Shown: positions 30,401 to 60,100 of the stretch, one piece after another
Layout of the letters: each line of letters opens with the position of its first letter
Numbering within the stretch: the first letter of the stretch is position 1
Source: Mytilus galloprovincialis
Lineage: Eukaryota > Mollusca > Bivalvia > Mytilida > Mytilidae
DNA length: 64,000 nt
NCBI RefSeq assembly: GCF_965363235.1
Contig: NC_134839.1
Span: 80,253,410-80,317,409 of the forward strand
Direction of reading: 5' to 3'
Notes under the pieces: generated by a model
Database searches by the model: none
Told to the model about the DNA's origin: nothing
Seen by the model: only the letters and a program-made list of their open reading frames with translations
Made by a program: the position numbers and the translations under genes

Positions 30401-33400
30401 ATTGTAATAAAGATCAAATTTGATTCTGTACTCACTATCCTTCAATTTACCATATACACTACAGTTGTAGAACCAGGCATTATTTAGCACCACATTTGTA
30501 TTTAGTCTAGCTAATAGTCCAAGATGTCTTTGGGTTATATCGTCATGGAATTTAATGTCATTCTTCAACCCCTTCTTATTTCTCATTATCTTGATTTTAA
30601 TTTCTGTGTTACGGACCTTTGCTATCACAGGTTTGATGTTACCTTCTTTTCCTGGGATTCGATGTATTGCTATGACATCTGATGGTTCTATCTCAACATT
30701 TTAGTCTTTCTTCACCATTTTTACGAAAACATCTCGTAAGTTCTCATTTCTCTTTTCTGGAAAATTCACCATTCTTATATTATGTTTCCTGGAGTACTGT
30801 TCATTATAGTTTACAGATTTAAGTGCATCTATGGACCTATGGTTGCAATCTTCCACTTTTTCCTGAAGTTCTTTTATTTGCCTATCTTTTGTTCTAAGTC
30901 TCTCTTTGCAGTTCTCATTGTCTATATTAAGAGCATCTATCTCATCTTTCAACTTTCCAGTTCTTTCCCTCAGTTTGGTGTTAAATTCCTCAGTGATTGA
31001 CTCCTTCAGTGTAGACAAAAGCTTACTTACTATAGTTGTCACAAGATCTTTTAAGTCATTTTGTTTGACAAGATTATCCAGGTCAGATTTTTTAACAGTA
31101 TCTTGAAGGCTTTTTTTGATGTCCTTCAAATCTGAATGAATACTCATTAAATCAATACCCTCTAGGCTCTCCTCTGACACATCTGAGAAAGTTCTTTTGT
31201 CACGCTTGGGTGGTGGATTTCCTTGATTAGCTATTTGTTGATCTTTCTTTGGTGCTAATAAAGACTGAACTGTTTTATTTCCATCTTTGTTCTTAATTTC
31301 CTTATTGTCCTTGGTGTTTATCTTATTGGCCAGAGGTGGTGGCATGTTTAGGTTTTCACTTTCAATACACTGAATAGTAATCACTCAAAAATGTTTTCAC
31401 TAAAAAAAAAAGTTTCTACAAACTGTATCTTTCACAAATTGAAATTATGTCCATAAATAAGCACAAATCCAGGTTGTATTCCAAAAGTTGATCACTCTGG
31501 TATAAATTTTATCTCATGAAAATATCAAAAATCACTATAAAAACTGCCAAAACTGCAGAGCTAGTTTAGCTCACAACTACACTGGCGGCCATCTTGTTCC
31601 TCTCCTTTTGGTTTTCCTATTTGATAAGGGAATTTCCGGTTTGATTTTTCTTTTTGAGTTCGTTATTTTTCTAGTTAACATTACATTTATACCTGTCGCA
31701 TAATGTTGTATTGTCAGCTCTTATTGTTGCGATTAATATGCTTAAATGTATAACCTACTGAATAGAAAAAATGTATGTCTCCAATTGATTACAGACTTTC
31801 CGTTTCGAATTTTCCTCAGAGCTCAGTATTTTTGTGATTTTAATTTTTGTAATCACTTAGACATTACAATAATTAATGTAGAATTCATAAAATATTGATG
31901 CAAATTAGACAATGGTAAGTGTGCATCAAATTTGGTATCGATGATGTATATTGAAAGTGTTCTATAAATATGTGTATTGTTGTGTTTTATATCGGAATTG
32001 TTTCCCCTTGACTATGGTTGTTATTTAATATGTAATTCTAGCTCACATGTCCAGTTTGACCCTAACATAGGGGTCATGGTAATGTTGTTTTATTGAAAGA
32101 GAAACATGTGATAAAGGGAGATAGTCAGCGTTATCATTAACTTTTCCTCAGTATTCATGCAATTTATACCACTGTAACGATGACTATAATAAAGTTGATA
32201 ACTATTATATATTAATAAAAGTAGCATAAAGTAAAATCACAAAAATACTGAACACAGAGTAAAGTTCAAAACGGAAGGTCCATAATCAAATGGCAAAATC
32301 AAAAGCCAAAACACATCAAACGATGTTTAACGTATTCTGTCGTTCTGAGTGTTTTTGCGTTTATTTGTACTGTATTACTTTCACCTAATGTTGTCTTTCA
32401 ATGTTTAACATTTTGATATAAGTGGAAGGTTTGGCTAGCCATAAAACCTGTTTCAACCCACCATTTTTCTTAAAAGGTCCTGTACCTATTTTAGGCGGTT
32501 TTTTATGTTGCAGTTCAGTGTTTCTGTTCTTCAGTTGTTTTCCTCTTTTTTGGTTTGTGAGACATATTTTTTTCTCGCTAACTACTAATAGGTTTTATGT
32601 CTAATGAACAGTGGAAAACTAGTTGCTTTTCTTTGTTTTGATAATGTAGAAATATCAAAAATACCACTAGAATGGCAAGACAATGTGACATCAATACGGT
32701 ATAAACAAGCGAAAAAAAAATTCAGCACAAAGATAAACATTAATAAACAATATGATAGTACATTACAACATGAATTTGCTACAGCACACGAAGACACCAC
32801 AAATGAAAGATAAATTGCGCGTCACACAAAAGAACCAATGTCACATAACAGGTATAACCTTACTAAAGCTTTAAACGTCCCATCGAAGAAAGTAATCTAC
32901 CCATTAAATTTATTCGTTTACCGACTATTCACAAAAGAGAGTGAAACAATACCTTTTCAGCAGATAATCCTTTGGTCTGACATTCCTTTGGAACAGCATT
33001 CAATCTTTCTGCATTTCTTGCCGCTAAAATCAATTTTACATCGAAAGTTGCCAACAACAATGCTGTTGCCTCGCCAATTCCAGAACTAGCTCCTGAATAT
33101 GAATTAGATTTAAATAGTTATCAATGTTCAAAATGAAAAGAAAGGATCAACGATTAATGTATTCTAAAAAAAGAGGCAAATGTAATCAAATGATTTTCAA
33201 AACTTTAATCTGTTTTGAATATATAAAAACAAAGAGAACTCCAACATTAGCATTATCTTGCTATGTATACGTCAACCGTCATCAGACTTAGTCAACACTT
33301 TGAGGACAGATACTAATACCAAGACCACTGGCATATATGAGATGAAGGAATCGCTGAAATGTAAACTAATTAGTAACTTGGCTGTATATATTTATGTCTT

Positions 33401-37995: not shown

Positions 37996-39682
37996 TAATT
38001 CAGTAGCTGTCGTTTGTTTATGTGTTACAAACAGTTGAAAGGGGTGTATAGTCCGCGGTTTTTTACCCTAGGAATGAAATTGATGGAAGGGGTGCGGACT
38101 ATGCAGTACTATAGAATTTCATGACATTTTTTTTTCCAGAGTGGGGATACGATGTTGAACGAGGTTTGACCAAGTAAACAGAAACATCATGTGTTGTCAA
38201 TGTTATAATGTATTCTTGACAACTCTTTGTATTATTTAGAAATAAAAGTATTCTTGACTACTCTTTGTTATTATTTTTAAATAAAATAAACAATCTAACA
38301 GTGTTGACTTAGTAATTTGCATAAAAATCAGCCTTTGATCGAATGTCCGCTTTGTTTCGGATTTGGTAAAATTTGTGTCATTGCATCTTTGACAGTGTAC
38401 ATGAATCCTGAATATCAATAAAAGATGAACCCTTGAATGGTAAAACCATTATAGTCAAGATAAAACCTAGTGAAATCTTCCCAAGATCGATTTCGTTTAA
38501 TGTTATTCACGTGTGTACAGTACATGTAGACCACGATGCGCCATTTTGAAAATGTGTGATTAAAGTATCAAAATTTTCGTATTCCGACTTTTTGTGTTTA
38601 ACTCTTAACTTATCGACTTAAATAAATCAAGACCTAACATTTTTTAATTGTAAATTGTAACCATTAATACTGAAAGTGTAAACCTGAAAGAAGTGGAATT
38701 TTGTATACGAAACTATATTTCCAGGTGAAAGGTCACATTGTACAGGTGTATCGTCTTACATGAATGAGTTTACAGGTTTGTGTGTAAAGCAATTAATTAA
38801 CCATGTCAACTTTAGATTTCGTCTAAGTTCAGTAATTTTGTGATTTTACTTTTAACTAAAACACGATAAAGGAAACCATCTTGAAATGACCTTAATTGAC
38901 ATCGACAAAATCTATAAATACGTATTCAAATGAGGTCCCGATTGACATTGATTGATTGGCCCTGATCTAGTATAATGTTTGGGGGTTTACACGATACATA
39001 GCAAGTACGGAAAGACACGATGACAAATAATAACATCAGCTTGCATTAAATAGTTAAATAAAATTCATACAATGTAGAAATAAAATAATCAAGTATTCTT
39101 ACAAATTCAAGACTTACACAGAGAGGAAGTAGGACAATGCTTTTAAATATTTACCTTTACGGTAGGATGGAATCCACCAAATTCATCGGCGTAATAGCCG
39201 CAAAATAATATCCATGCGCCATTCATGCCATTTGGCAAATTTTAATGCCTTCATTACAAACATTTTCGGCGATGAAATTATTCTTACATTAGTTCACTTA
39301 CATCTTCATCAAAAGCACAGACGATAAAAAGCTATGCTTAACTTTTTAATTAGCACTTTTTCAAATGGGGAACATCAATTGTTTTGGGAAAATCGACGAT
39401 CATTTAAGGTAATCTTCCTTATATTTATTGTTTTTTATAACAAAAAGTGTGAAAAAAATGTCTAATTAGTTATAAAGAATCTACCAGACCTGCCAGATCA
39501 GAGCAATGGCACTTTTTCAAAAATTCCCAGAGGGGAACCCAAATCCAGGGTGCTCGCATAAGGCAGCTTAACTGCCTAAAAATCCTGTTTGTTTTGAATA
39601 GTAATTTATTGTCTCTGTTAGATATTGTTATCTGTCGACTGTAGGCATGCATTTCGGCTGTTATCTGTCGACTGTATGCATA

Positions 39683-41620
39683 AAATTGAGAATGGAAATG
39701 GGGAATGTGCCAAAGAGACAACAAACCGACCATAGAAAGAAAAAAAAACAACAACAGAAGGTCACCAACAGGTCTTCAATGTAGCGAGAAATTCCCGCAC
39801 CCGGAGGCGTCCTTCAGCTGGCCCCTAAACAAATATATACCAGTTCAGTAATAATGAACGCCATACTAATTTCCAAATTGTACACAAGAAACTAAAATTA
39901 AAATAATACAAGACTAACAAAGGCCAGAGGCTCTTGACTTGGGACAGGCGCAAAAATGCGGCGGGGTTAAACATGTTTGTGATATCTCAACCCTCCCCCT
40001 ATACCTCTAGCCAATGTAGAAAAGTAAACGTATAACAATACGTACATTAAAATTCAGTCCAAGAAATGTCCGAGTCTGATGTTAGAACATGTAACCAAAG
40101 AAAATAAACAAAATGACAATAATACATAAATAACAACAGACTACTAGCAGTTAACTGACATGCCAGCTCCAGACTTCAATTAAACTGACTGAAAGATTAT
40201 GATTTCATCATCTGAACATCAGGCACAATCCTTCCCGTTAGGGGTTTAGTATCATACCATCATAACATATATGAGAAGAACATAACCCGTGTCATGCCAA
40301 CAACTGGTTTTTGAATAAATGTGTTTAGTTCCGATGCAAAGACCCTATAAGTGAATCAATATTAACGCCAAAATATGCAATCTTTAATGACCTGACAATT
40401 GTATCGTAACTATATCCCTTCTTAATAAGTCTATTCAAAGGTTTTGTTAGTTTTTGAGGTGAATACTGACACCTTTGTGCTTTATAAAGAATATTTCCAT
40501 AAAAAATTGGATGTGAAATACCTGAACGTATAAGAAGTCTGCATGTTGAGCTATATTTACGAATGATGTCCTTATACCGATGATAAAATTTAGTAAATGT
40601 TTTGACTAGTTTGTGATATCGAAAACCCTGGTGTAATAATTTTTCAGTAATACATAAATTTCTCTCGTTAAAATCTAAAACATTGTTACATACACGAGCG
40701 AATCGTACAAGTTGAGATATATAAACACCGTAAGATGGTGACAAGGGAACGTCACCATCTAAAAATGGATAATTAACGATAGGAAATGAAAAATCATCTC
40801 TTTTATCATAAATTTTAGTATTCAGCTTTCCGTTAGTGATATAGATATCAAGATCGAGGAAAGGACAGTGGTCATTGTTAGTATTAGCTTTATTTAAAGT
40901 AAGTTCAGCAGGATAAATTTCTTCAATATACATACTGAAGTCGTCATTATTGAGAGCCAAAATATCATCCAAATATCTAAAAGTATTATTAAATTTGTTT
41001 ATCAGATGTTGTTTCGATGGGTCTTTGCTTATTTTTGTCATAAATTGTAACTCATAGCAATACAAAAACAGGTCCGCAATAAGTGGTGCACAGTTAGTCC
41101 CCATTGGAATTCCGATAATCTGACGATATACGGAATTCCCAAAGCGAACAAAAATGTTATCTAGTAAAAATTCAAGGGCATATATAGTATCAAAGCATGT
41201 CCAATTGACATAGTTTTTTTGTTTATTGCTACTAAAAAATGACCTAAAAGAGTTTGAACATATATATTCACATTCTGACTTTTTAAATGCCCATTTAATT
41301 AGGTGTGTGAATTTTTTCTAAATGAGAGTGTGAGGCAATGTGGTATACAGGGTAGAAAAATCAAAACTTTGAACAGATTCAAAATCACCAATATAAGCAT
41401 GCAATTTATCAAGTACTTCAAACGAGTTCTTGACACTCCAAAAGTAATTAATTCCACTATTTTAGAAGGCCTTATTTGAACAATTTATTATCAGATTTTT
41501 AATTGTTCCAAGTGTGCTGGTAAGAAGAATAGACAATTTAGTAGTGGAACAATGGCTTGAAGACGAAATAAATCTATATTTGTAAGGTGTTTGCATTTCT
41601 TCTCAGCAAAGACACAAACT
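39683..41620 (-). mobile_element. Penelope-like retroelement, 5'-truncated fossil
   Basis: The minus strand at 41104-40325 encodes a reverse-transcriptase segment with MGTNCAPLIADLFLYCYE, FRYLDDIL, CPFLDLDIYI, YDKRDDFSFPIVNYPFL and [14 protein letters not shown]. More decayed sequence of the same domain continues to about 41620. A non-coding 3' tail of about 640 bp runs to 39683 and also occurs alone at 33394-33800. The RT is certain; the Penelope-like label rests on motif order (YLDD followed by FLDL) and no endonuclease is seen. Broken, not a host gene. Confidence 0.75.
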
Positions 41621-42093: not shown

Positions 42094-42852
42094 ACAAGAG
42101 GCTCTCAAGAGCCTGAATCGCTCATCTGGTAAACAATGCCTTCGGCCATGTTTTTTGACGAAATAGAAAATAAAACACAAACTTTTATTTTATACACCCT
42201 AGTGATCATTCAAATGAAGTTTGGTTGAATTTGGTTGAGTAGTTTTAGAGGAGAAGATTTTTTAACGTTAGCAAATATGATGAACAAATTGTGAAAAATT
42301 GTCATTAAAGGACAATAACCCCTTAAGGGGTCAATTGACAATTTTGGTCATATTAACTTATTTGTAGATCTTACTTTGCTGATCATTTTTGCTGTTTACA
42401 GTTTATCTTTATCTATAATAATATTCAAGATAATGACCAAAAACTGCAAAATTTCCTTAAAATTACCAATTAAGTGGCAGCAACCCAACAATGGGTTGTT
42501 TGATTCATCTGAAAATTTCAGGACTGATAGATCTTGACCTAATGAATATTTTTACCCCTTGTCAGATTTGCTTTAAATGCTTTAGTTTTTGAGATATAAG
42601 CCAAAAACTGCATTTGACCCCTATGTTCTATTTTAAGTAACGGCGGCCATCTTTTTTTGACGGATCAAAAATCGAAGCACAAACTTTGTGCAGGATAATC
42701 TAAGGAACAATCATGCTAAGTTTCATCCAAATCCATTCAGTAGTTTCAGAGGAGAAGATGTTTGAAAAATTGTTAACGACGACAGACGACGACGACGGAC
42801 GCCAAGTGATGAGAAAAGCTCACTTTTCCTTTTAGGAAAGGTGAGCTTAAAA
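42094..42852 (+). mobile_element. Family C hairpin-ended repeat, copy C1
   Basis: 5' end ACAAGAGGCTCTCAAGAGCC (hairpin AGGCTC/GAGCCT), then one core unit with PyNNPy-free, non-coding text, a GACGACGACGGACGCC stretch, and a 3' hairpin at 42817-42847 (AGCTCACTTTTCCT, loop TTT, AGGAAAGGTGAGCT) followed by TAAAA. No ORF of note. Confidence 0.8.
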
Positions 42853-44238
42853 CTGCAAAATTTCCTTAAAATTACCAATTCAGGGGCAACAACCTAGCAA
42901 CGTGTCGTCCGATCCATCTGAATATTTCAGGGCAGATAGATTTTGACCTGATAAACAATTCAACCACAGTCAGATTTGATCTTAATGCTTTGGTTTTTGA
43001 CATTTTACCCTTATGTTCTACTTTTAGCCGTGGCAGCCATCTTGTTTGGATGGCCGGGTCACCCGACACATTTTTTAAACTATATACCCAAAACATGATT
43101 GTGGCCAAGTTTGGATTAATTTGGCCCAGTAGTTTCAGAGGAGAAGATTTTTGTAAAAGATTACTAAGATTTACGAAAAATGGTTAAAAATTGACTATAA
43201 AGGGCAATAACTCCTAAAGGGGTCAACTGACCATTTCGGTCATGTTGACTTATTTGTAAATCTAACTTTGCTGAACATTATTGCTGTTTACAGTTTATCT
43301 CTATCTATAATAATATTCAAGATAATGACCAAAAACTGCAAAATTTCCTTAAAATTACCAATTCAGGGGCAGCAACCCAACAATGGGTTGTCCAATTCAT
43401 CTGAAAATTTCAGGGCAGATAGATCTTGACCTGATAAACAATTTAACACCTGTCAGATTTGCTCTAAATGCTTTGGTTTTTGAGTTATAAGCCAAAAACT
43501 GCATTTGACCCCTATGTTCTATTTTTAGCCATGGCGGCCATTTTGGTTAGTTGGCCAGGTCACCGGACACAATTTTCAAACTAGATACCCTAATGATGGT
43601 TGTGGCCAAGTTTAGTTCAATTTGGCCCAGTAGTTTCAGAGGAGAAGATTTTTGTAAAAGATAACTAAGATTTATGAAAAATGGTTAAAAATTGACTATA
43701 AAGGGCAATAACTCCTAAAGGGGTCAACTGACCATTTCAGTCATGTTGACTTATTTTTAGGTCTTACTTTGCTGAACATTTTTGCTGTTTACAGTTTATC
43801 TCTACCTATAATAATATTCATGATAATAACCAAAAACGGCAAAATTTCCTTAAAATTTCCAATTCAGGGGCAGCAACCCAACAATGGGTTGTCCGATTCA
43901 TCTGAAAATTTCAGGGCAGATAGATCTTGACCTGATAATCAATTTTACCCCGTCAGATTTGCTCTAAATGCTTCGGTTTTTGAGTTATAAGCCAAAAACT
44001 GCATTTGACCCCTATGTTCTATTTTTAGCAATGGCAACCATGTTTGTTGATAGATCAAAACTTCGGATACAATTTATAAACTACATACCCTAAGGAACAT
44101 TCAGTTAAAGTTTGGAAGTATTTGGCCTAGTAGTTTCAGAGAAGAAGATTCTTGAAATAGTTTACGACGACGGACGACGACGGACGCCAAGTGATGGCAT
44201 AAGCTCCCTTTGGCCCCTCGGGCCACGTGAGCTAAAAA
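42853..44238 (+). mobile_element. Family C repeat, copy C2, 5'-truncated and joined to C1
   Basis: Begins inside the family C core (AAACTGCAAAATTTCCTTAA) immediately after the C1 3' end and holds about two and a half core units of roughly 500 bp (marker GGCCCAGTAGTTTCAGAGGA at about 43125, 43625 and 44125). It ends with GACGACGGACGACGACGGAC and a 3' hairpin around GGCCC/GGGCC, then GTGAGCTAAAAA. Confidence 0.8.
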
Positions 44239-45117
44239 CGTAGAATATAGTTCATGTCAGTAAATAAGCTATGACATATAAGTTGATGATACCCATAGGG
44301 ACTAAAAGTTGTTTGCCAGCATTGGTATCGTCTCCCTGTCTTTAAAAATAATCAAAGCGCTTGTAAGAACCGCTGTGTTAATATCAGTTGGAAGTCAAAT
44401 TAATATTGCATTGTATCAAGCATTTATTTGTAAATCAACTATTCCTGACATAGGAAGATAACTTCAACACTTTAACATATTTTTAGAACAGATATTAGAT
44501 CCAAGCACCTTGCATAAATTATGTAATTTTCTTGACAAGTATAACATAGTTTTTTATTTGAATATCTGAGCATATATTTCATATACAAATTTCTATAAAT
44601 GTGAATGGATACCATGTATCAATGCACTATATGTTGTGTATCTCAAAGGTAGTAATCAACCTTGGAAGATTTAGATATCAAGTCAGGATTGAATTGCATG
44701 CAGTCTTTACCCAAAATAATGCTTCATGATTTGTGTATGTATAGCGCTGTTCTGGATTTTCCTTCACTTACACCAAAAAGTAAAGTATGTATATTTACTT
44801 GAATATGTGAAGAGCTAAAATTGCATATAACCAAAGGGATACAAAATGATTAACAAAACCAATCTAAGGTCAAATTTGCCTGACGAAATTGGAAACTTTG
44901 TTCTCCGTCTTAATTTATCAATTGAGAATTTCCAAAAGGCAAATTTGGAAAATTTCTTTATGAACATTTGAAAAACCTTAAAGGTTTTTGGTTGAAAAAA
45001 TATAACAAGGGGTTACTGCAAATAAGTTAAAAGATTTCATGGAGTATGTTTCTGAAAGTTTACTGAATTTAACCAATTTCAAAACCTGTCAAAAGTATCT
45101 TATGGCAGACTAGTTAC
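44239..45117. other. No recognised feature
   Basis: AT-rich DNA between family C and the family J repeat. I see no ORF, tandem repeat or known repeat in it. Confidence 0.5.
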
Positions 45118-45340
45118 ATTAACGTCTAGAAAATAAGGTTTTATCTTCCTCAGGCAAAGCAGGCCCTACATGGATTCAGCTTTTTGACGGTCCATATTGG
45201 TTTATAGCTCTTCAACATTTCTGTCATTATACATCATTGGCTTTCAAATATTCGGCATAAAGTGATCCTGATGAAAGTAAATCCAGAAAAGATCTTCGGA
45301 TGTATGGAATTTATAAGGTGTTGTTTACATTTTTACAGCA
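45118..45340 (+). repeat. Family J repeat leading into the minisatellite
   Basis: Contains TCCTGATGAAAGTAAATCCA, GAAAAGATCTTCGGATGTAT and AAGGTGTTGTTTACATTTTT, then CACTGATCCGATACCTCTAC. The last part is the first unit of the 48-bp array, so the array looks like an internal expansion of family J. Confidence 0.65.
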
Positions 45341-46297
45341 CTGATCCGATACCTCTACTGGTGGACTATCAGTCCCCGGTGGTAAAAACTGATCCGATAC
45401 CTCTACTGGTGGACTATCAGTCCCCGGTGGTAAAAACTGATCCGATACCTCTTCTGGTGGACTATCAGTCCCCGGCCGAAAAAACTGATCCGATACCTCT
45501 ACTGGTCGACTATCAGTCCCTGGTGGTAAAAACTGATCCGATACCTCTACTGGTGGACTATCAGTCCCCGGTGGTAAAAACTGATCCGATACCTCTGCTG
45601 GTGGACTATCAGTCCCCGGCCGAAAAAACTGATCCGATACCTCTGCTGGTGGACTATCAGTCCCCGGCCGTAAAAACTGATCCGATACCTCTGCTGGTGG
45701 ACTATCAGTCCCCGGCCGTAAAAACTGATCCGATACCTCTACTGGTGGACTATCAGTCCCCGGCCGTAAAAACTGATCCGATACCTCTACTGGTGGACTA
45801 TCAGTCCCCGGTGGTAAAAACTGATCCGATACCTCTACTGGTGGACTATCAGTCCCCCGTGGTAAAAACTGATCCGATACCTCTACTGGTCGACTATCAT
45901 TCCCCGATGGTAAAAACTGATCCGATACCTCTACTGGTGGACTATCAGTCCCCGGTGGTAAAATCTGATCTGATACCTCTGCTGGTGGACTATCAGTCCC
46001 CCGTGGTAAAAACTGATCCGATACCTCTACTGGTCGACTATCAGTCCCCGGTGGTAAAAACTGATCCGATACCTCTACTGGTGGACTATCAGTCCCCGGT
46101 GGTAAAATCTGATCTGATACCTCTGCTGGTGGACTATCAGTCCCCGGTGGTAAAAACTGATCCGATACCTCTACTGGTGGACTATCAGTCCCCGGTGGTA
46201 AAAACTGATCCGATACCTCTACTGATGCACTATCAGTCCCCAGTGGTAAAAACTGATCCGATACCTCTACTGGTGGACTATCAGTCCCTGGTGGTAA
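45341..46297. repeat. 48-bp minisatellite, left part (about 20 units)
   Basis: Units of 48 bp: ACTGATCCGATACCTCTACT, GGTGGACTATCAGTCCCC, GGTGGTAAAA. Few variants occur (GGCCG versus GGTGG). As 48 is a multiple of 3 and the unit lacks stops, both strands are open: DPIPLLVDYQSPVVKT on plus, PPGTDSPPVEVSDQFL on minus. Each unit has a GGACTATCAGTCC near-palindrome. Confidence 0.95.
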
Positions 46298-47387
46298 CAA
46301 GAGTGCACACGCTGAAATGTCTCGCCTTCTATACTAATCATTGATATTATGTTGATAGTCCTAAGTAAAAAGCTAAGCTTTATAACAACTGTACCATAAA
46401 CTTAACATTAACCAAGATAACTAAACAAAGACCAATGAACCTTGAAAATGAGGTCAATGTCAGATGAACCATGCCAGGCAGACATGTACAGCTAACAATG
46501 CTTCTATACAACATATATAGTTGACCTATTACTTATAGTTTAAGAAAAATAGACCAAAACACAAAAACTTAACACTGTGCAATGAACCGTGAAAATGAGG
46601 TCACGGTCAAATAAAACCTGCGCGACTGACATAAAGATCATTAAATATTTCCATACACCAAATATAGTTGACCTATGGCATATAGTATTAGATAAAAAGA
46701 CCAAAACTCAAAAACTTAACTTTGACCACTGAACCATGAAAAAGAGGTCAAGGTCACATGACATCTGCCCGCTAGACATGTACACCTTACAATTATTCCA
46801 TACAACAAATATAGTAGACCTATTGCATATAGTATGAGAACAACAGACCAAAACACAAAAACTTAACTATAACCACTGAACCATGAAAATGAGGTCAAGG
46901 TCAGATGACACCTGCCAGTTGGACATGTACACCTTACAGTCCTTCCATACACCGAATATACTAGCCCTATTGCTTATAGTATCTGAGATATGGACTTGAC
47001 CACCAAAACTTAACCTTGTTCACTGATCCATGAAATGAGGTCGAGGTCAAGTGAAAACTGTCTGACAGACATTAGGACCTTGCAAGGTACGCACATATCA
47101 AATATAGTTATCCTATTACTTATAATAAGAGAGAATTCAACATTACAAAAAATTTGAACTTTTTTTTCAAGTGGTCACTGAACCATGAAAATGAGGTCAA
47201 GGACATTGGACATGTGACTGACGGAAACTTCGTAACATGAGGCATCTATATACAAAGTATGAAGCATCCAGGTCTTCCACCTTCTAAAATATAAAGCTTT
47301 TAAGAAGTTAGCTAACGCCGCCGCCGCCGCCGGATCACTATCCCTATGTCGAGCTTTCTGCAACAAAAGTTGCAGGCTCGACAAAAA
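46298..47387 (+). mobile_element. Family D hairpin-ended repeat inserted in the minisatellite
   Basis: 5' end CAAGAGTGCACACGCTGAAA, about six tandem subunits of 147-150 bp (marker ACCATGAAAATGAGGTCAAG), then GCCGCCGCCGCCGCCGGATC and a 3' hairpin 47349-47382 (GTCGAGC, TTT bulge, CTGCAAC, loop AAAA, GTTGCAG, GCTCGAC) followed by AAAAAC. The 48-bp array stops at GGTGGTAA on the left and resumes with AAACTGATCTG on the right. Confidence 0.85.
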
Positions 47388-47960
47388 CTGATCTGATACC
47401 TCTGCTGGTGGACTATCAGTCCCTGGTGGTAAAAACTGATCTGATACCTCTGCTGGTGGACTATCAGTCCCGGTGGTAAAAACTGATCCGATACCTCTGC
47501 TGGTGGACTATCAGTCCCCGGTGGTAAAAACTGATCCGATACCTCTACTGGTGGACTATCAGTCCCCGGTGGTAAAAACTGATCCGATACCTCTACTGGT
47601 GGACTATCAGTCCCCGGTGGTAAAAACTGATCCGATACCTCTACTGGTGGACTATCAGTCCCCGATGGTAAAAACTGATCCGATACCTCTGCTGGTGGAC
47701 TATCAGTCCCTGGTGGTAAAAACTGATCTGATACCTCTACTGGTGGACTATCAGTCCCCGGTGGTAAAAACTGATCTGATACCTGTACTGGTGGACTATC
47801 AGTCCCCGGTGGTAAAAACTGATCCGATACCTCTGCTGGTGGACTATCAGTCCTGGTGGTAAAAACTGATCCGATACCTCTTCTGGTGGACTATAAGTCC
47901 CCAGTGGTAAAAACTGATCCAATACCTCTGCTGGTGGACTATTAGTCCCCGGTGGTAAAA
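47388..47960. repeat. 48-bp minisatellite, right part (about 12 units)
   Basis: The same unit as at 45341-46297 resumes after element D, with a higher share of CTGATCTG variants and a few small length changes near the right end. It ends in an A run at 47959-47969. Confidence 0.95.
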
Positions 47961-48113
47961 AAAAAAAGGTGATTAAGATAATCATTATCAAACACATTAT
48001 CAAATAATTCCTTTAGTCAAATTTCTTCCAAAATTCCTCTTCAAACCAGCATTTTCTATGATTGAGGTGAACTTACCAGTATTACAATACAGTAAATTAG
48101 CAAATATGTGTTT

Positions 48114-48119
48114 TTTATT
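48114..48119 (-). terminator. Poly(A) signal AATAAA for UBAC1
   Basis: The minus strand reads GATAATAAAAAACAC about 70 nt beyond the UBAC1 stop codon, a suitable position for the main polyadenylation signal. No transcript evidence. Confidence 0.55.
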
Positions 48120-48188
48120 ATCAATAAATAATTAAGGCACTTTAAATAACAGGTATCACAAATCAATATCACAGAAATAAACAATAAA

Positions 48189-51100
48189 TTATTTGATTTG
48201 TCCATCGTTGTCAGTTTCACTGGAATATTTCCAAGAATGATATATCCTTGTAATATGAACAATAAAAGGTCCAGTTTCTGGGTCACTCAGCCACTGGTGT
48301 AAGGTCAAAGGGCTTTCTAATAGTTGTATCATAGCTGAAATATAAATATTTATTTAGTAATTGTGTAATCTGATAAGCAAATAAATAATATGCGACTCAA
48401 TTGACTGGAATGTCAGATACTATTCATCAGTATGAAAATATTAAGATTCAAACATTATTTTGCAGGTTTTTTCTTTGAGGTCAACTTAAGTAAATTGATG
48501 AGATCCCAGGTCCTGTATGCAACTTTTGTCATTTTGATTAAGAACAAAAACTTTGTAAGAGTTCCACGGAACCCAGTGTCTCGCCTACTTTTGCTGTTAA
48601 TCGCAGACTCAACAAAAATGAGGAAAGACATCATGTGGAAATTTATTTTTACAAAATTTTCTTCTTGACACTATTTTATGATCATAAACAAGCTTCTGTC
48701 CAAGTTTGGTACAAATCAAGGATAGTTTATGAAAGTTATTAAAATTTTAAAAACTTTAACCACAGAGTGAATGTAATGTTTCCTCGCAGAAAAAGTAAGT
48801 CCATTTATAAGTAAAATACGGAAAAAATGGAATTTTTTTTTACAAAACTTACTTCTGGATACTTTCTTATGATCATAAACAAGCTTCTGTCTAAGTTTGG
48901 TAGAAATTCAATATAGTTTAAGAAAGTTATAAAAAATTTCAAAAACTTTAACCACAGAGTGAATATTTGTGGACGCCGCCGCCGACGACGACGCTGACGA
49001 CGGAATGTAGGATCGCTTAGTCTCGCTTTTTCGACTTAAGTCGAAGGCTCGACAAAAACTATAATAGATTAAAACTTTGTTTTCTCATTTGATATGTTTC
49101 ATAATATGTTAATATCAATTCAGAAAGTTTTGCTTGCTATGTATTTGTGATAATCAGGGGTTTCATTATCTTTCATGTTGACTGGTACTTTCCACCTTTC
49201 TAGGTGGTACTTTTCAATTTATTCCATGAATATCTTATATAAAAATTCCTACATTTAGGCGGTACTTGTCAATGGCATAGGAGGGTAAAAGTACCAGGTA
49301 CCGCCTCCTAATGAATGGCCTGGATAAAAGAAACAAATTCAAACAATTAAAAAAATATTTGCATTAAACTTGTTTGCTTTTGTTATAGATTGAATATCTA
49401 ATCATTGATGCTTTGAGAGGCACATATTCTAGTTATTAGTTAAAATCTGAAGAAAAACAGTACACTAACTTTATCTATCAATTCTAAAGATTACATCAAA
49501 CTGTTACTGACATCTTACCTAATAAACATCTTGGATTATTTAAGCCCAGCTGAACATTTGGATTTGATACTAAAGCTTTGTACATTTGACTAGATGAATC
49601 CAAACCTTCTGGTTCACTTTCCTCAATTCTTGTTTTTCTGTCTCCTAGCAACCACTCACACTGAAAATATTAAAACAAAAATCTTTAGTAATAGTCATTT
49701 TTTGTTGAATACATTACACTTCCTTTTCAATTATAAAATCATAATTATGAAAAGTTGAAGTTGAACTTGACAGTTGTGCAAGTAATTTTATTTAAACCTG
49801 CTTTTCCTCTTCAACATAAACAGATCTAGATTTTTTATAATTTAAATAAAACATGTGTTCACAGGTTGAATATCTGTTGTTTATGTCTACATATTACTGC
49901 AAAACACTTCAAATGATTGTGACTCAGACATGTCCTTTACCATGTTTACAATAAATTAAAATACTTTATTTTTAAAGATGGTCCACTGTTCATTTTTTCA
50001 CCCTGTTCATAAATCAGAAGTTCTGCACTGTAATAAGATTAAAAGTTGTACAGACAAATGTATAATAGGAAGATTTACTACTATTATTGTACTGGCACAC
50101 AAAAAAATTACATACTAAAAGAGAGTTCTGATGGCTCAGAAATATCTCAAATCTAATTTATAGCAAGAATGCGTCCAAAGCACTATAAGTTTCAATGTTC
50201 AATGGACCGTGAAATTGGGTAAAAAATAATTTGGCATTAAAATTAGAAAGATCATACCATAGTGAACATGTGTACTAAGTTTCAAGTTGATTGAACTTCA
50301 ACTTCATCAAAAACTACATTGACCAAAAACTTTAGCCTGAAGCGGGACAGACGAACGAACGGACGGAGGAACGGACGCACAGACCAGAAAACATAATGCT
50401 CCTCTACTATCATAGGTGGGGCATAAAAAGAATTCAAATAAGTTCTTCACTAGCTCTCTCCCTTTTTCATCACTGTCAGTAGAAGTTTGACAGACTAAAC
50501 TTAATTTGATATGGCCTTTAATGATATAAGCTTCTGTTATATGTGGTACAATAACATCACAACTTAAGGGTTGCCTATGCCATATTCATATTCAGACACA
50601 TCCATAACTTACAGCACCATTCTGTTCATTCCTGGAAACCTTTAAAGCTTCAATAACTTCTGCCTCATCAAATCCCATCTCTACAAGATTTAACAAGGCC
50701 TGTGGATTAGGTTTGAATTCTTTCTTCCCCAGAGCTCGTAGAGACTGAAGATTACTTTGATCTGTATCTTCCTTTATGGTTTCTGGTAAAGTTATTCCTG
50801 TGGCACCTTCTACCTGTAAAGTAAAACAAACAGTTGCTATAATTAGTTTGTATGAATGCCTTTTTACTTGTATAATAAGATAGTATGAATGACTTTACCT
50901 TGCTATAATTAGATTGTATGAATGCCTTCCTTTTTTCTATAATAAGATTGTATGAATGTCTTTTTCCCTTGCTATAATTAGAAAGTATGAATGCCTTTTT
51001 GTCTTGCTATAATTAGATAGTATGAATGACTTTTTCTCTTGCTATAATTAGATTGTATGAATGCCTTCCTTTTTCTCTTGCTATAATTAGATTGTATCAA

Positions 51101-54100
51101 TGTCTTTTCCCTTGCTATAATTAGATAGTATGAATGCCTTTTTCTCTTGCTATAATTAGATAGTATGAATGCCTTTTTCTCTTGCTATAATTAGATAGTA
51201 TGAATGCCTTTTTCTCTTGCTATAATTAGATAGTATGAATGCCTTTTTCTCTTGCTATAATTAGATAGTATGAATGCCTTTTTCTCTTGCTATAATTAGA
51301 TAGTATGAATGCCTTTTTCTCTTGCTTTAATTAGATTGTATGAATGCCTTTTTCTCTTGCTATAATTAGATTGTATGAATGACTTTTCCTTGCTATAATT
51401 AGATTGTATGAATGACTTTTCCCTTGCTATAATTAGATTGTATGAATGACTTTTCCCTTGCTATAATTAGATTGTATGAATGACTTTTCCCTTGCTATCA
51501 TTATATTGTATGAATGCCTTTTTCCTATCTCTAAAACAAAATTCTAACCCTTTTGGTCCATGTTATATGTGAGAAATATGTTTTTGGAGTTTAGGATGAT
51601 GTTCATTTTCACTGAATTGGTACACATTTTTATTTAGGGGCAAGCTGACATGGCTGAGGACCACCTCCCAGTGCTGAATTGGAGAAAATCTTGCATGACA
51701 TATTTTTAATCATATTAACAGCAGTAATATATGAGCTGTTACGGAAAGAAATAGACCTTATGCAAGTGAACATATTATAGTCGCCGTCACGTAAAATTGG
51801 CACCATGTTTTTTGTCAAAATTTTCTTAAATATCGACCGCGTTTACTAAAGATCATGTTTTTCAATTAGCGGAATCAAATATCATTCCAAAAAACAACTA
51901 CTGTCCTACCTTTTATTGTGTTTACACTGTATAATCCTGACCTTCACATAATCCAAGATTAATTTGTATGGTGGAATCCGACATTGTTATTACCGGAAGT
52001 GTTGCCGTGGAGTTCCACGTGCTCTCAATTTTCTTGTGTCTCTCGGAGCTTTTCGTCATCTTTACGTAAAAAGCGCGGGAAATTGTATCATCAATGACAA
52101 TGATATTACCGGAGAGTAACGAATGTTATGGAATAAGGGACCTTCATAGAAACCAAGATGGCGGTTATACAATGTAAATAATCTTGAAAAATGTGAAGGT
52201 CAGGATTATACAGTGCAAACACAATAAAAGGTAGGACAGTAGTGGATATTTGGACAGGATTTTACTTCCGCTAAAAGAAAAACATCATCTTGAGTAAACG
52301 CGGCTGATATTTAAAATTTTTTTAACAAAAAACATGGTGCCAATTTTACATGACGGCGACTATAGTATGAAATTCAAAACAGTTAGCTGTGGCCATTGAT
52401 TGACACATTAAAATCATTCATTGACTGGGACAATTTAGGTGAACGTTTGTATGTAACGACCAATGCTCACTATGTACTTTTTAAAGACACTTAAACTATG
52501 GGGTCACCAAAGGTTCTCAACACCTAAATAAAGTAATTCGAAAAATTAATCAGAAATAACACGATATTTTGATTTATATCAATTATATAAATCAAAACAC
52601 AAAGGTTATTCCTGATTAATTTTTCGAATTATTTTATAATTAAAGGCGTTAAGAAACCTTTGTTGGCCCCACAGTTTAAATGTCTATCGTAGGTACGTCA
52701 TGAACAGTGGTTGTTACAGACAAACGTTCACGTAAATTGTCCCAGTCAATGGATGATTTTGATGGGTCAATCAATGGCCACAGCTACACTGTTTTGAATT
52801 TCATACTATACATATGCATGTATAGGACTTTGACTGATTCTGCAACATTTAAATACAAAATAAACTAGAGGCTCTAAAGAGCCTGTGTCGCTCACCTTGG
52901 TCTATGTGACTATTAAACAAAGGAAGCAGATGGATTCATGACAAAATTGTATTTTGGTGATGGTGATGTGTTTGTACATCTTACTTTACTGAACATCCTT
53001 GCTGCTTACAATTATCTCTATCTATAATGAACTTGGCCCAGTAGTTTCAGTGGAAAATGTTAGTAAAAATTTACAAATTTTATAAAAATTGTTGAAAATT
53101 GACTATAAAGGACAATAACTCCTTAGGGGGTCAATTGACCATTTCGGTCATGTTGACTTATTTGTAAATCTTACTTTGCTGAACATTATTGCTGTTTACA
53201 GTTTATCTCTATCTATAATAATATTCAAGACAATAACCAAAAACAGCAAAATTTCCTTAAAATTACCAATTCAGGGGCAGCAACCCAACAACGGGTTGTC
53301 CGATTTATCTGAAAATTTCAGGGCAGATAGATCTTGACCTGATAAACAATCTAACCCCCATGTCAGATTTGCTCTAAACGCTTTGGTTTTTGAGTTATAA
53401 GCCAAAAACTGCATTTTACCCCTATGTTCTATTTTTAGCCATGGTGGCCATCTTGGTTGGATGGCCAGGTCATCGGACACATTTTTTAAACTAGATACCC
53501 CAAAGATGATTGTGGATAAGTTTGGATTAATTTGGCCCAGTAGTTTCAGAGGAGAAGATTTTTGTAAAAGATTACTAAGATTTACGAAAAATGGTTAAAA
53601 ATTGACTATAAAGGGCAATAACTCCTAAAGGGGTCAACTGACCATTTCGGTCATGTTGACTTATCTGTAAATCTGACTTTGCTGAACATAATGGCTGTTT
53701 ACAGTTTATCTCTATCTATAATAATATACAAGATAATAACCAAAATTTGGCCCAGTAGTTTCAGAGGAGAAGATTTTTGTAAAAGTTAACGATGCCGGAC
53801 GACGCCGGACGACGCCGGACGCCAAGTGATGAGAAAAGCTCACTTGGCCCTTTGGGCCAGGTGAGCTAAAAATGAATTTCAATCTGTTCTATAGAGTTCT
53901 TATTTCAACTTAAGGCTTCATATTGTGTCAAGCAGCTGGTATTTTACAATATCAATATGATGAATTTTGGGATTGTATTTAAGTGTTTTTCTTTATTTCA
54001 CCAGCAAACAGAAAGATGAATTGATAAGTTCAGGTCAATGTGATAGTTTTGTCTTGCAATGGGCCACCTATATAAATATAAGGAAATGTGATTTCAAATG

Positions 54101-57100
54101 AGACAACCATCTAAAGACCATAAAACAAAGCTGTGAACAATCACAGGTCCCCTCAAGAGTTGGTGCGCATGGAATTGGGTTAAAATGGATTAAACCTTTT
54201 ATACAATAGTTTTTAACAGGAAATAACTGTAGTCAACTCTTGAAGTCAGCCAGACCAGAGTAATATTTCCAGATACCTGTAGTTCGACTTAAACAAATAC
54301 CAGAAGGTTGACAGACCAAGGGACATTACTCTTGCTTATCTTAGTAAAGCTAAATCCAGAAGAATATGGTTAGGGAATCTATATTCTGGTCTGAGATAAA
54401 AGTATTTGTTTTTAAAGTTCATTCTCATATACAAGAGAGTTAAGAAAATTTTGATTGAAATGTATAATAAAGGGTTAAAGGCCTTATTTAAACTAAAAAA
54501 ATGTTTCTCAGGTCATAAACCAAAAATAAAAACTCTCATTCATGTTTTTGACCATACAGTTAAATCCGTCTTAATGTATGGCAGTGAAATATGGGGTGAC
54601 ATTAACTTTCACAAACTAAACACTCAAGGGGATAACTATTTCAAAAAACTATGTGGAGACCTGGCAGTAGAGAAGGCTCATTTAAGCTTTTGTAAATTTA
54701 TACTTGGAGTAAGTAAAAAAGCAACAAATATTGCAGTTATGGGTGAACTGGGCAGATATCCTCTATTTTTGGAGGTTTTGTTAAATATGTTTAAATATTA
54801 TATACGTTTAAAAAAATCTGATGACTTATTATTAAAAGAGGCTTTCAACCTCTCAAAATCTCTACATGATGAGCAGAAAAAGAGCTAGTATACCAGTATT
54901 CAAACTTTATTTAAATACTTTAGCATCAATGAAAATTATGCACTTAATTTAAAGACGAAGTTAAAAAACTATTTATGCAAAAAGATGCAATCAAAATATG
55001 ATTTAATATGGCAAACTGAGCTTAATAATGATTTCAGAGGCAATAAACTATATGGTAACAAGCTCAGAACTTATAGACTTTTTAAAAGCAGATTTTGCTT
55101 AGAAAATTACCTTTTGCAGGAAAATTTTAGATATAGACATTATTTAACAAAATTCCGTATCAGTGCTCACGATTTAGAGATTGAGAGGGGAAGGTACAAA
55201 AATCTGACAGTGTCAAAACGTATCTGTAAATTGTGCGGTACTGAGGTTGAGGATGAAATTCATTTTCTTCTTCAGTGCCACAAACTTTCAAATATTCGTT
55301 TCAACTTTTTAAATGAAATAAAACAACGGTTTAAAAATTTTAGTGGTTTAGATATTAAATCACAATTTATTTGGCTAATGTCGTCTGAAGATACTTTCAT
55401 ACTCCAGAAACTCGGAGAATTATTGGAAAATTTATCCTCATATAGGAAAGTTTCCTTAAAAGATATATAGATATAGAAATGCCCAGTGACCCCCCTTATA
55501 TTATTAAACACTGTGCTTGTTGTATTCTTGTACTTGTCTTAATAAATATTTTTTGGTTTGGTTGTTTTTTTGTTGTTTTTTTTTATAACATTGTGTCTTA
55601 ATCATATTGAATCACTTGTAATCATTTGTATGTAATTAATGTTGATTGTTCTGCTCCTTGTGGGCGCTTTGATTAGCAATAAAATATATTTGAATTTGAA
55701 TTTGAATTTGATTTCTTTGCACTTTCTTTTATTTCAAATTTTTTCTGCAAGAGAAAATACATGAAGATAACAAGAATGTGTCCAAAGTACATGGATGCCC
55801 ATCTCGCACTAACATTTTCTATGTTCAGTGGACCTTGAAATTGGGATAAACACTCCAATTTGGCATTAAAATTAGAAATATCATATCATAAGGAACATTT
55901 GTACTAAGTTTCAAGCTATTTGGACTTCAACATCATCAAAAACTACCTTGACCAAAAACTTTAACCTGAAGGGGGACAGACGGACAGACAGAAGGACAAA
56001 CAAATGGACGCACAAACTAGAAAACATAATGCCCCTATACTATTGCAGATGGGGCATAAAAAGATGCAGATTGAGTAGTTTTTATCTAATCATTAAGTCT
56101 TAATGGTAGTAAATAGTTTTTAAATTATTTTTCATAAAATGTAACACTAAATATCTATTGTTGTGATCAAAAATAATCATAGGTGAACACTCGATAAAAA
56201 AGATATCATAAATCAATCCAGTGGTCAGTCACCAGAAATTTGATTACATGAAGAACCTTTAAACCATTTAAATACCATAGGTAATGTTTTGACATATTTG
56301 TTTTTATATTTAGAGACAAATAATGCAGTCTGAATGTTTATGTTAACCTTGAATTCGAAAATATGGTTTGAGCAAACTGAAATTTCAGCTCATCCTATTT
56401 GACTCATTAGGAGTTGAAATACATAAATTTATATGGGACAAAGCTAGGGACCATGGGAAAACTTTAACTCATCAGAAAGGAGTAGGTCCAGTAAGACCCC
56501 TTTTTGGCCCCAAAATATAGCAGTTTTACAAAGTTGTTAAAATGTAAACTTTTAGTTATTTATTGGACAGTAGAATGCTTCTGCTCCATAAATATGGGCT
56601 GTTTTTGACATAACAATGCACATATATCGGGTACTAGCACCATAAAGTCATGCTAAATTACTGAAATCTTCACAATTCTAGCATTTTAGTTAAATTTTAG
56701 ACGGTTTTCATGTAAAACGAAAGTGGCCGCATTCGTGTTCATCCTTAATATTGAAATATAAGTTGTATTTTATGATAATACATAATATATATAAAGGTTG
56801 AGGATGAACAAATTGAACACGAATGCGGCCACTTTCATTTTTGACAAAAACCATCTGCAAAGTGACATTTTTCGGCATATTTGGTAGATTTTTCATATTT
56901 GAGCTTGAATCGGATTGTTTTTAATGACTAAATCAGTTAAAATCTTTCACATAAACTAACAGATTCAAATGAAATAGACACTTAAGTGTTTAAAAAGTGG
57001 TCAAAATCCTTCGTCAGATGAACCTGAAATTTGAGGCCAAAATCGGTCCTTACCGGACCTTCTCCTTTCTAGTCAACCGAGTTTGAGACAATGAGGGTTT

Positions 57101-60100
57101 GATTGTATGACAGATATTGTGATGATTGTCTACCTGATCCTCCTGTGTATTTTCTGGTTCAGGGTCTAATGCATGTTGTAATAGCCATTCCATTGCTGAA
57201 TTAAAAGAGTTTCTACAACAGAGACAATACTTTTAACCAAAAATATAAATAAACCAGATGCTCCGCAGGGCGCAGCTTTATACGACCGCAGAAGTTGAAC
57301 CCTGAACGGTTGGGGCAAGTATGGACACAACATTCAAGCTGGATTCAGCTCTAAATTTGGATTGTGATTAAATAGTTGACACTGCATAGGTTTCTGACAC
57401 AGAATGAATGTGGTCTAATGAGACTTAAAATATCTTTTTTGCCTTTCACTATGCTGTTGAATATTAATCCTCTCAAAAAAATGTTTGAAAAAATTTTCTT
57501 TTTATTTATGAAATCTGAAATGAGAAAAATTTACCCCCCCCCCCCCCATTTTTTTTCACATCCCCCTTTCCCTTTTTCCAAAACTGATCTCAATTCAAAT
57601 TTCTAATGGAGTTTGCAACAATAACTACTCATTTAAATACATCATAAAATATTAAAATGTAAAATAAAGAGCTTGTTATCACTGAATGGTAAAGATTGTT
57701 TTAATTTATCAGTAGGTAGTAAAAGTGAATATACATTGTATATTGTGTAAAATAATGATTTAAGTTGATTCAACTACTATTCTGGACAAAGAAAGATAAC
57801 TCCAATTCAATGAAAATTTCTTGCTATTGCACAATATTGTGCAATTAGATATTTCTTGCTATTGCGCAATACTGTGCAATTGAAAATATTTGCTATTGCA
57901 CAATACTGTGCAATTGAAGATTTCTTGCTATTGCGCAATACTGTGCAATTAAAAATTTCTTGCTATTGCACAATAATGTGCAATTGAAGATTTTGCTATT
58001 GCTGAATACTGTGCAATTGAAAATTTCTTGCTATTGCACAATACTTAATATAATAATTTTGGATCCTGAATTGAACCAACTTGAAAACTGGGCCCATAAT
58101 CAAAAATCTAAGTACATGTTTAAATTCAGCATATCAAAAAAGCCCAAGAATTCAATTTTTGTTAAAATCAAACTTAGTTTAATTTTGGACCCTTTGGACT
58201 TTAATGTAGAACAATTTGAAAACGGGACCAAAAATTAAGAATCTACATACACAGTTAGATTTGGCATATCAAAGAACCCCAATTATTCAATTTTTGATGA
58301 AACCAAACAAAGTTTAATTTTGGACCCCGATTTGGACCAACTTGAAAACTGGGCCAATAATCAAAAATCTAAGTACATTTTTAGATTCAGCATATCAAAT
58401 TAAAGAACCCCAAGGATTCAATTTTTGTTAAAATCAAACTAAGTTTAATTTTGGACCCTTTGGACCTTAATGTAGACCAATTTGAAACCGGGACCAAAAA
58501 TTAAGAATCTACATACACAGTTAGATTCGGCATATCAAAGAACCCCAATTATTCAATTTTTGATGAAATCAAACAAAGTTCAATTTTGGACCCTTTGGGC
58601 CCCTTATTCCTAAACTGCTGGGACCAAAACTCCCAAAATCAAACCCAACCTTCCTTTTATGGTCATAAACCTTGTGTTTAAATTTCATAGATTTCTATTT
58701 ACTTATATTAAAGTTATGGTGCGAAAACCAAGAATAATGCTTATTTGGGCCCCTTTTTGGCCCCTAATTCCTAAACTGTTGGGACCTCAACTCCAAAAAT
58801 CAATCCCAACCTTCCTTTTGTGGTCATAAACCTTGTGTCAAAATTTCATAGATTTCTATTTTCTTATACTAAAGTTATTGTGCGAAAACCAAGAATAATG
58901 CTTATTTGGGCCGTTTTTTGGCCCCTAATTCCTGAACTGTTGGAACCTCAACTCCAAAAATCAATCCCAACCTTCCTTTTATGGTCATAAACCTTGTGTC
59001 AAAATTTCATAGATTTTTATTTACTTAAACTAAAGTTATAGTGCGAAAACCAAGAAAATGCTTATTTGGGCCCTTTTAGGCCCCTTATTCCTAAAATGTT
59101 GGGACCAAAACTCCCAAAATCAATCCCAACCTTCCTTTTGTGGTCATAAACCTTGTGTTAAAATTTCATAGATTTCTATTCACTTTTACTAAAGTTAGAG
59201 TGCGAAAACTAAAAGTATTCGGACGACGACGACAACGCAGACGACGACGCCAACGTGATACCAATATACGACCAAAATTTTTTTAATTTTTGCGGTCATA
59301 TAAAAATCATTCAATTATAATAATGCTAGATTTTTGCTAAAACCACATAAAGAATTGCAGTTATACATATTTTTTTATAAAGTTCTTATCACTAATTGAA
59401 AAAATTAAACAAAACATTATCTAAATAAACAATTCTATACTTTTTTGTCATTTGAATAACTCTGTATTGATTTCTAATCTTTGATAGCTAATTATAAATT
59501 TAATCTGAACTTTAATAGAATCTGGCTGATTTAGAGCTCAACAAAGTTCTATAAAAGCACCTGTTTATTGTTGAAGACTTCATTTTCTTACATTTAGTTG
59601 CTATCACATTGGTGTATCTTCATATTTCCTTTTATTCCTTTTAAAATCTCAACATAAAGTGGGTTTTTTTTTTTCTTTGAGAGAAATATATTTCAACTGT
59701 ATAAAGAATATAGCAGCGTAACATATAATAAGACTAGATGATTTTTATTGATTCCAAAATCAAATACTCGTGGAGGATTTTATTTCGTTTATTTCGTGGA
59801 AAGAATATATCCACGAAATTAAAACCCCCACGAAAATTTAACCTCCATATAATACCACTTACATTTAAGGAAACCACAAAATTAAATCCCCATGAAAATT
59901 AATGTTTCTACAGTATTACATATATTGTATGGGATTGCAACCTTAATTTGATATATGGTCACATACAAAGAGACAAGATCCCTTTTGATTTCAATGTCAT
60001 TATGTACAAAGAAAAATCACAAAAATACTGAACACTGAGGAAAATTCAAAAAGAGAAGTCCCTAATCAAATGGCAAAATCAAAAGCTCAAATGTTAACAC

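Follow-up and report, generated by a model that had tools for sequence, protein, structure and literature searches.

Five repeat families in a 64-kb stretch of the Mytilus galloprovincialis genome are probably non-autonomous Helentrons

A stretch of 64,000 nucleotides from the bivalve Mytilus galloprovincialis (contig NC_134839.1, positions 80,253,410 to 80,317,409; hereafter the window, in whose own coordinates features are given) carries five families of repeats, C, D, E, F and G, and raises the question of what kind of mobile element they are. An earlier note, made from the sequence alone, had seen one hairpin-capped plan behind five different bodies and suggested an undescribed superfamily. 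We find instead that C-G are very probably HINEs, that is non-autonomous Helentrons, moved in trans by the Rep/helicase/endonuclease proteins of Helentrons in the same genome. Seven insertions (C1, D, E, F1, F2, C3 and G) lie between 42095 and 59306, all in a single orientation. The features that the note named are present in the sequence, and its statement that no protein is encoded holds, no stop-to-stop open reading frame (ORF) of at least 110 aa lying wholly within any element in the window. The ends had been swapped, however, as the plus strand was read whereas the elements run on the minus strand, and the AAAAA taken for a 3' terminus is in fact the T5 of the 5' end.

Read on the minus strand, all five families have the same order of parts: T5, a 5' subterminal inverted repeat (subTIR), an inverted partner with which it forms a hairpin, a GTC/GGC/GTCC microsatellite and tandem units, followed by a 3' subTIR, a short palindrome (weak in D and F) and then T. 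This matches the order that defines HINEs in PMC4067079 and PMC7492417 (both, like the other paper cited below, drawn on in excerpt). Since reverse complementation brings out the arrangement published for HINEs, the reading as a new superfamily is unsupported. The microsatellite and central tandem repeats of HINEs are both present. The tandem units measure ~501 bp in C, ~191 bp in E, 147 bp in D and 161 and 135/266 bp in G; F, which had been left out when internal units were reported for these four, has units of ~169 bp, seen only in another copy (L082). A scan of the window for GTC/GGC-type microsatellite gave seven clusters; each is on the minus strand and sits just within the 5' end of a C-G element or of the inner C end described below, an arrangement beyond chance. 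In that scan the hairpin that the script picked for G was a different one, and F1 was too degenerate to be matched. A C cluster (GTC/GTCC/GGC, 53789..53823, minus strand), seen in the repeat and microsatellite scans, adjoins the 5' end. As observed before, D and E share GGCTCGACAAAAAC, and their end modules are common to both.

Six stretches were folded as single-stranded DNA and compared with dinucleotide shuffles. On the T-run side the hairpin was better than the shuffles in five of them (z -5.4 for C3, -3.4 for C1, -6.7 for D, -2.5 for F2 and -3.0 for G), and in E it was no better (z -0.6). The inverted repeat that accompanies the 5' subTIR in HINEs is therefore found here, folding above shuffles in C, D, F and G and not in E; in D, the subTIR and its partner occupy 47346..47382 on the minus strand. 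On the 3' side only C3 beat the shuffles (z -2.3), with C1 at -0.9, G at -0.8, F2 at -0.3, E at +0.7 and D at +1.5. By eye, a 3' palindrome is visible in C, G and other E copies, where it takes the cleaner form GGGTTCC/GGAACCC.

The ends recur from copy to copy. Sixteen D copies, the window copy among them, were read at their ends (six as loci, ten as pairs of end stretches), and in all 16 one end has GTCGAGCCTGCAAC and the opposite end GCGTGTGCACTCTTGT. Copy C3 (52865..53872, minus strand), which has both ends and fewer tandem units than the composite C1, reads TTTTTAGCTCACCTGGCCCAAAGGGCCAAGTGAGCT at its 5' end and AGGTGAGCGACACAGGCTCTTTAGAGCCTCTAG, then TTT, at its 3' end; G reads TTTTTATACGACCGCA at the 5' end in several copies and TGCGGTCGTATAAAGCTGCGCCCTGCGGAGCATCTGG, then TTT, at the 3' end. 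The inverted repeats are asymmetric: on one side they are terminal, and on the opposite side their inner edge is 30-38 nt in from the end. Majority ends were built from several copies, together with a further set, H, of one 5' end and four 3' ends, and each 5' end (18 nt) was scored against all the 3' ends (60 nt, reverse-complemented). The own-end scores of C, D, E, F, G and H were 8, 6, 6, 9, 13 and 11. Their sum, 53, was attained by two of the 720 pairings, namely the identity and the swap of D with E (two of 120 when H was left out). Single window copies stood out against shuffles for C3, F2 and G (21, 20 and 0 of 1000, respectively). Judged by these scores, the 5' and 3' subTIRs expected of HINEs are present, at 8 in C, 9 in F and 13 in G, and are imperfect in D and E; the D 3' subTIR (46318..46329, minus strand) is TGTCTCGCCTTC against TGTCGAGCCTGC at the 5' end. 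F1 gave no 3' subTIR signal.

The T-run at the left end is nearly fixed in length. It is exactly five in 6/8 C, 12/18 D, 6/6 E and 7/8 F copies, and among the 16 D copies above it is five in ten, six in five and two in one (L046). Counted by eye, G has T5 in four of six fetched copies and T4-like and T8 runs in the others; automated G counts were left out, as they were contaminated by G's own 3' subTIR. In L046, where D lies in a G copy, a piece of the target (~100 bp by eye) is missing between the two T-runs.

What the elements do to their target can be read from empty sites. The window D element (46298..47387, minus strand) lies in a 48-bp tandem array (45340..47961, Tandem Repeats Finder) that supplies an empty site within the window: T5 has become T5+T2, and removal of the element restores the 48-bp spacing if two Ts are given to D. 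Among the array units caught by the search pattern, a five-T run is present in 13/15 on the left and 9/9 on the right. T5 likewise became T5+T2 where D sits in a 38-bp array (L060) and where C sits in a D unit (L006), while D in a G copy (L056) changed T4 to T5+T1 and D in an F copy (L062) changed T5 to T6+T1. At all five sites, four of D and one of C, exactly two Ts were gained and there is no simple duplication. A plain duplication of TT is disfavoured because L062 has six left Ts against five in both window F copies. The target is a T-run, entered at about the junction of TTT and T by an element starting with TT or, equally, joined by an element starting with T5 that overlaps three target Ts. 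A T-rich target without target duplication, a further HINE feature, is accordingly found in families C and D.

Are Helentrons present in the same genome? PF14214, the Helitron Rep domain, has 138 matches in the genome, some within one locus. An open frame that spans 2,997 aa from stop to stop, scanned for domains in two pieces, carries OTU, DUF6570, Helitron_like_N, PIF1 and Exo_endo_phos domains. About 0.9 kb past this frame lies a HINE-type 3' end, GGAAAGACTTTCAATTGTTCTCTGAACAATTGG, then TTTTT, on which a second copy agrees, and a protein-free element (L042) has a matching 5' hairpin, AGGTCTTTCCAC..GTGGAAAGACCT. Two copies of one Rep lineage differ in their upstream sequences. Scans for the C-G end motifs showed no autonomous partner in 34 loci of or near Rep matches and six further stretches, nor in L085-L087 or eight stretches, three of them new. 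The C, F and G ends in L109, L082 and L080 were considered as ends of Rep elements and appear to belong to separate HINE copies. We also observed that related protein-free sequence follows two Helentron copies (L039/L040, reverse complement, 10616 and 11728; L042, 4783-8030); the L039 sequence has no 5' hairpin, as might be expected from transfer that ran past the 3' end.

The assembly searched comprises 1.385 Gb in 331 contigs, and each search scored only the best 40 candidates, the first-look candidate counts given here not being copy numbers. D gave 3,157 candidates, the best 40 matching at 98-100% identity and nearly full length. Family D looks recently active, because these best 40 copies are so close to the window copy. 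The C composite gave 5,981 candidates (best 40 at 94-100%) and copy C3 5,783, of which the 39 other best match from about position 124-148 on, several of these relatives having positions 1-128 further upstream. E gave 2,927 candidates, of which the 39 other best match roughly the first 423 nt at 95-97%. The window copy (48551..49058, minus strand), delimited by the genome search and the ends of other copies, is internally shortened, and four other E copies that were read have 858-1051 bp between the same ends. F2 (55771..56062, minus strand), delimited by its genome relatives and ends, gave 4,338 candidates, the 39 other best at 84-88% and nearly full length. F1 (50164..50429, minus strand) is an old copy, an 83% match to F2, that has lost its 3' subTIR. 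G (57254..59306, minus strand), both of whose ends recur in four long copies, gave 7,349 candidates; seven of the best 40, window copy included, match end to end and 33 partially. A supposed short form of G is at least partly an alignment break, since the five of these 33 partial matches that were read all continue into the rest of G. Three candidate rolling-circle concatemers were rejected. Three C elements on contig C13 (G000:C13:39185727-39192385) stand at an exact 2,888-bp spacing and look like a segmental duplication that took in the flanks (judged from the one spacer read), two D copies on contig C1 are separated by 0.1 kb of other sequence, and an F pair on contig C3 has its flank repeated.

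How might such elements move? By analogy with Helitrons and Helentrons, the enzyme would start at the 5' end, with its T-run, subTIR and inverted partner, and a single strand would be displaced 5' to 3' through the microsatellite and tandem units. Transfer would stop at the 3' subTIR and palindrome, and the strand would be joined into a T-run target without target duplication. Both this single-strand rolling-circle transfer and the matching of a given Helentron to a given family we infer from work on those elements, whereas the ends, order of parts, copy families, empty sites, Helentron genes and loci with several 5' ends were observed directly.

The loci with several 5' ends bear on this mechanism. 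In the window, C1 (42095..44238, minus strand) is a composite with two 5' ends and one 3' end, and its outer ends recur at other loci. The C loci read are best matches, biased to the composite form, and include the window copy. In 8/8 of them an inner 5' end with its hairpin (42816..42848 in the window, minus strand) precedes the 3' end by 746-753 nt and falls at one constant point of the tandem unit; the junction, GCAGTTTTT directly followed by AGCTCACC, has one base altered in the window copy. In 7/8 there is also an outer 5' end, 1.65-2.16 kb upstream of the 3' end. L002 shows no outer 5' end within 2.3 kb upstream nor in the further stretch L113, and in L007 the outer end is an inner-type hairpin. 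Among the best 40 C matches, 39, window copy included, extend beyond query position 759, where the inner 5' end lies, a form that the query favours. The remaining match ends at the inner 5' end (C4:63795956-63796712) and, as one in 40, gives no estimate of frequency. It has its own T5 and different flanks, and therefore both C starts have been used with one 3' end. At two more C loci, on contig C5, the alignment rows have the inner-end stretch three times, ~0.9 kb apart, and the 3' end (positions 1-123) once. Family E offers a similar locus (C5:29040600-29043000), with 5' ends at 29040769, 29041269 and 29041957 and one 3' end near 29042976; here an outer 5' end is joined by two inner 5' ends that share a 45-nt junction inside the E unit.

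Our preferred explanation, which we hold to be somewhat the better bet, is that at these C and E loci transfer started at either kind of 5' end, outer or inner, and ran on to a 3' end, leaving a natural record of Helentron copying. The skipped 5' starts would stay inside the spreading unit, and an inner start would still be functional. Tandem Helitrons often have 3'-truncated inner copies (PMC7492417), which is the pattern of C and E, the parts of that paper drawn on here containing no HINE case. Deletion after a nested insertion, or unequal crossing-over, is a less probable but serious alternative, as a one-off deletion with crossing-over would yield the same structures, and the E inner junctions, 688 bp apart, are identical over the 45 nt compared, as local duplication leaves them. 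Against this, the pattern is found in two families and the C composite afterwards spread as a unit. The several-starts loci support 5'-to-3' rolling-circle transfer. Together with the near-fixed T5 and the two-T gain of C and D, they open a way to test in which direction Helentron transfer runs and by what rule it stops.

Several results weigh against the assignment of C-G to the HINEs. All the empty sites are paralogous, lying in related repeats, and none is allelic. The single E site, in a C copy, gained five Ts, with five on both sides, and does not distinguish Ts of the element from a duplication. The 3' palindromes of D and F are no better than shuffles, the single-copy subTIR tests fail for C1, D, E and F1, and the D and E own-end scores (6 and 6) are equalled or exceeded when they are paired with ends of certain other families. 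For the Helentron that was read, no 5' end was found. As to the shared autonomous partner that the earlier note had proposed to look for, Helentrons are present, one of them with a HINE-type 3' end, but no Rep element with C-G ends lies in the stretches downstream of the nine Rep loci read.

This last result would be expected of an undescribed superfamily of hairpin-capped transposons moved by another enzyme, and the 5' T-run, near-constant at five, varies less than the Ts in the published description. We nevertheless regard such a superfamily as very improbable, since HINEs have these parts in this order, insertion is into T-runs without simple duplication, and Helentron genes are present. 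The canonical Helitron features (5' TC, 3' CTRR, insertion between A and T) are absent, and the earlier note had rightly seen no clear match to such ends (5' TTGTC.. and TTAGC..; 3' CTTG or CTGG before T; insertion in a T-run), and HINEs do not have them. Still harder to sustain is retroposition of SINE-like or LINE-derived (short or long interspersed) elements, with A5 as a short poly-A tail. Plus-strand copies do end in AAAAA after a hairpin, but the run is nearly fixed at five, both ends are constant and the six empty sites hold no long duplication. The pol III head, A-tail and long target duplication of SINEs were not found; the window has no tRNA or Rfam match, these being the only searches made for a pol III head. 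The best 40 D copies are also not 5'-truncated, though best-match lists favour full copies. Cut-and-paste miniature inverted-repeat transposable elements with imperfect inverted ends, the class in which Pearl and similar elements were originally filed (PMC7492417, PMC4067079), can be dismissed almost entirely, since the inverted repeats are asymmetric rather than symmetric and terminal, and the five C and D empty sites show no fixed duplication.

The likeness to HINEs and Pearl elements that the earlier note had pointed to survives the tests of ends, empty sites, copy structure and Helentron gene presence. In place of the claimed superfamily there are five HINE families, young to old, for which exact ends, empty sites inside arrays and Helentron genes of the same genome are now in hand. 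We regard C-G as new families of a known kind, compared with Cg_HINE through its published description; a literature search found no paper on them, with Repbase, where names may exist, outside its cover. As described in PMC7492417, Cg_HINE of Crassostrea gigas shares with C-G the 5' subTIR, inverted repeat, GTC-type microsatellite, satellite-like tandem units, 3' subTIR and fixed array orientation, and with C and D a T-rich target without duplication; it also has a 3' palindrome, which is less sure in C-G, its units being 138-181 bp as against 147 to ~501 bp here. The same paper describes Pearl of oyster and ark, and MgE of M. galloprovincialis, which it names as a comparable element, as bivalve HINE-type elements with central repeats. 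DINE-1/HINE-Mo and Helentrons have the same end plan, a TT target without modification and Ts within the element (PMC4067079), although the T number of DINE-1/HINE-Mo varies where the left run of C-G is mostly exactly five, and the 3' subTIR is placed 38-60 nt from the 3' end as against an inner edge at 30-38 nt. The Rep/helicase/endonuclease protein of Helentrons, OTU included, matches the 2,997-aa frame apart from DUF6570 (PMC4067079). Helitron2/FoHeli elements likewise have asymmetric inverted repeats, some with hairpins at both ends, and insert between TTTT and T or C; no endonuclease domain, such as the Helentron read here carries, was found in the fungal proteins (PMC5148889).

The seven window HINEs share the orientation of a minus-strand gene with a UBA-domain exon (50615-50813), which we presume to be UBAC1-like. 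An orientation bias of intronic HINEs is possible.

The window also holds other repeats. Two 0.4-kb inverted repeats, 95% identical, lie ~6 kb apart (33399-33800 and 39680-40087), and adjoining them is a 330-aa ORF on the minus strand (40325-41317) without a Pfam match, which we take to be a Penelope-type reverse transcriptase from its look. Broken pieces of a non-LTR (long terminal repeat) retrotransposon, with endonuclease and reverse transcriptase domains, lie at 26033-29737 on the minus strand. Finally, three fold-back elements, at 51771-52369, 52361-52810 and 56699-56856, have inverted arms of ~80-225 bp.

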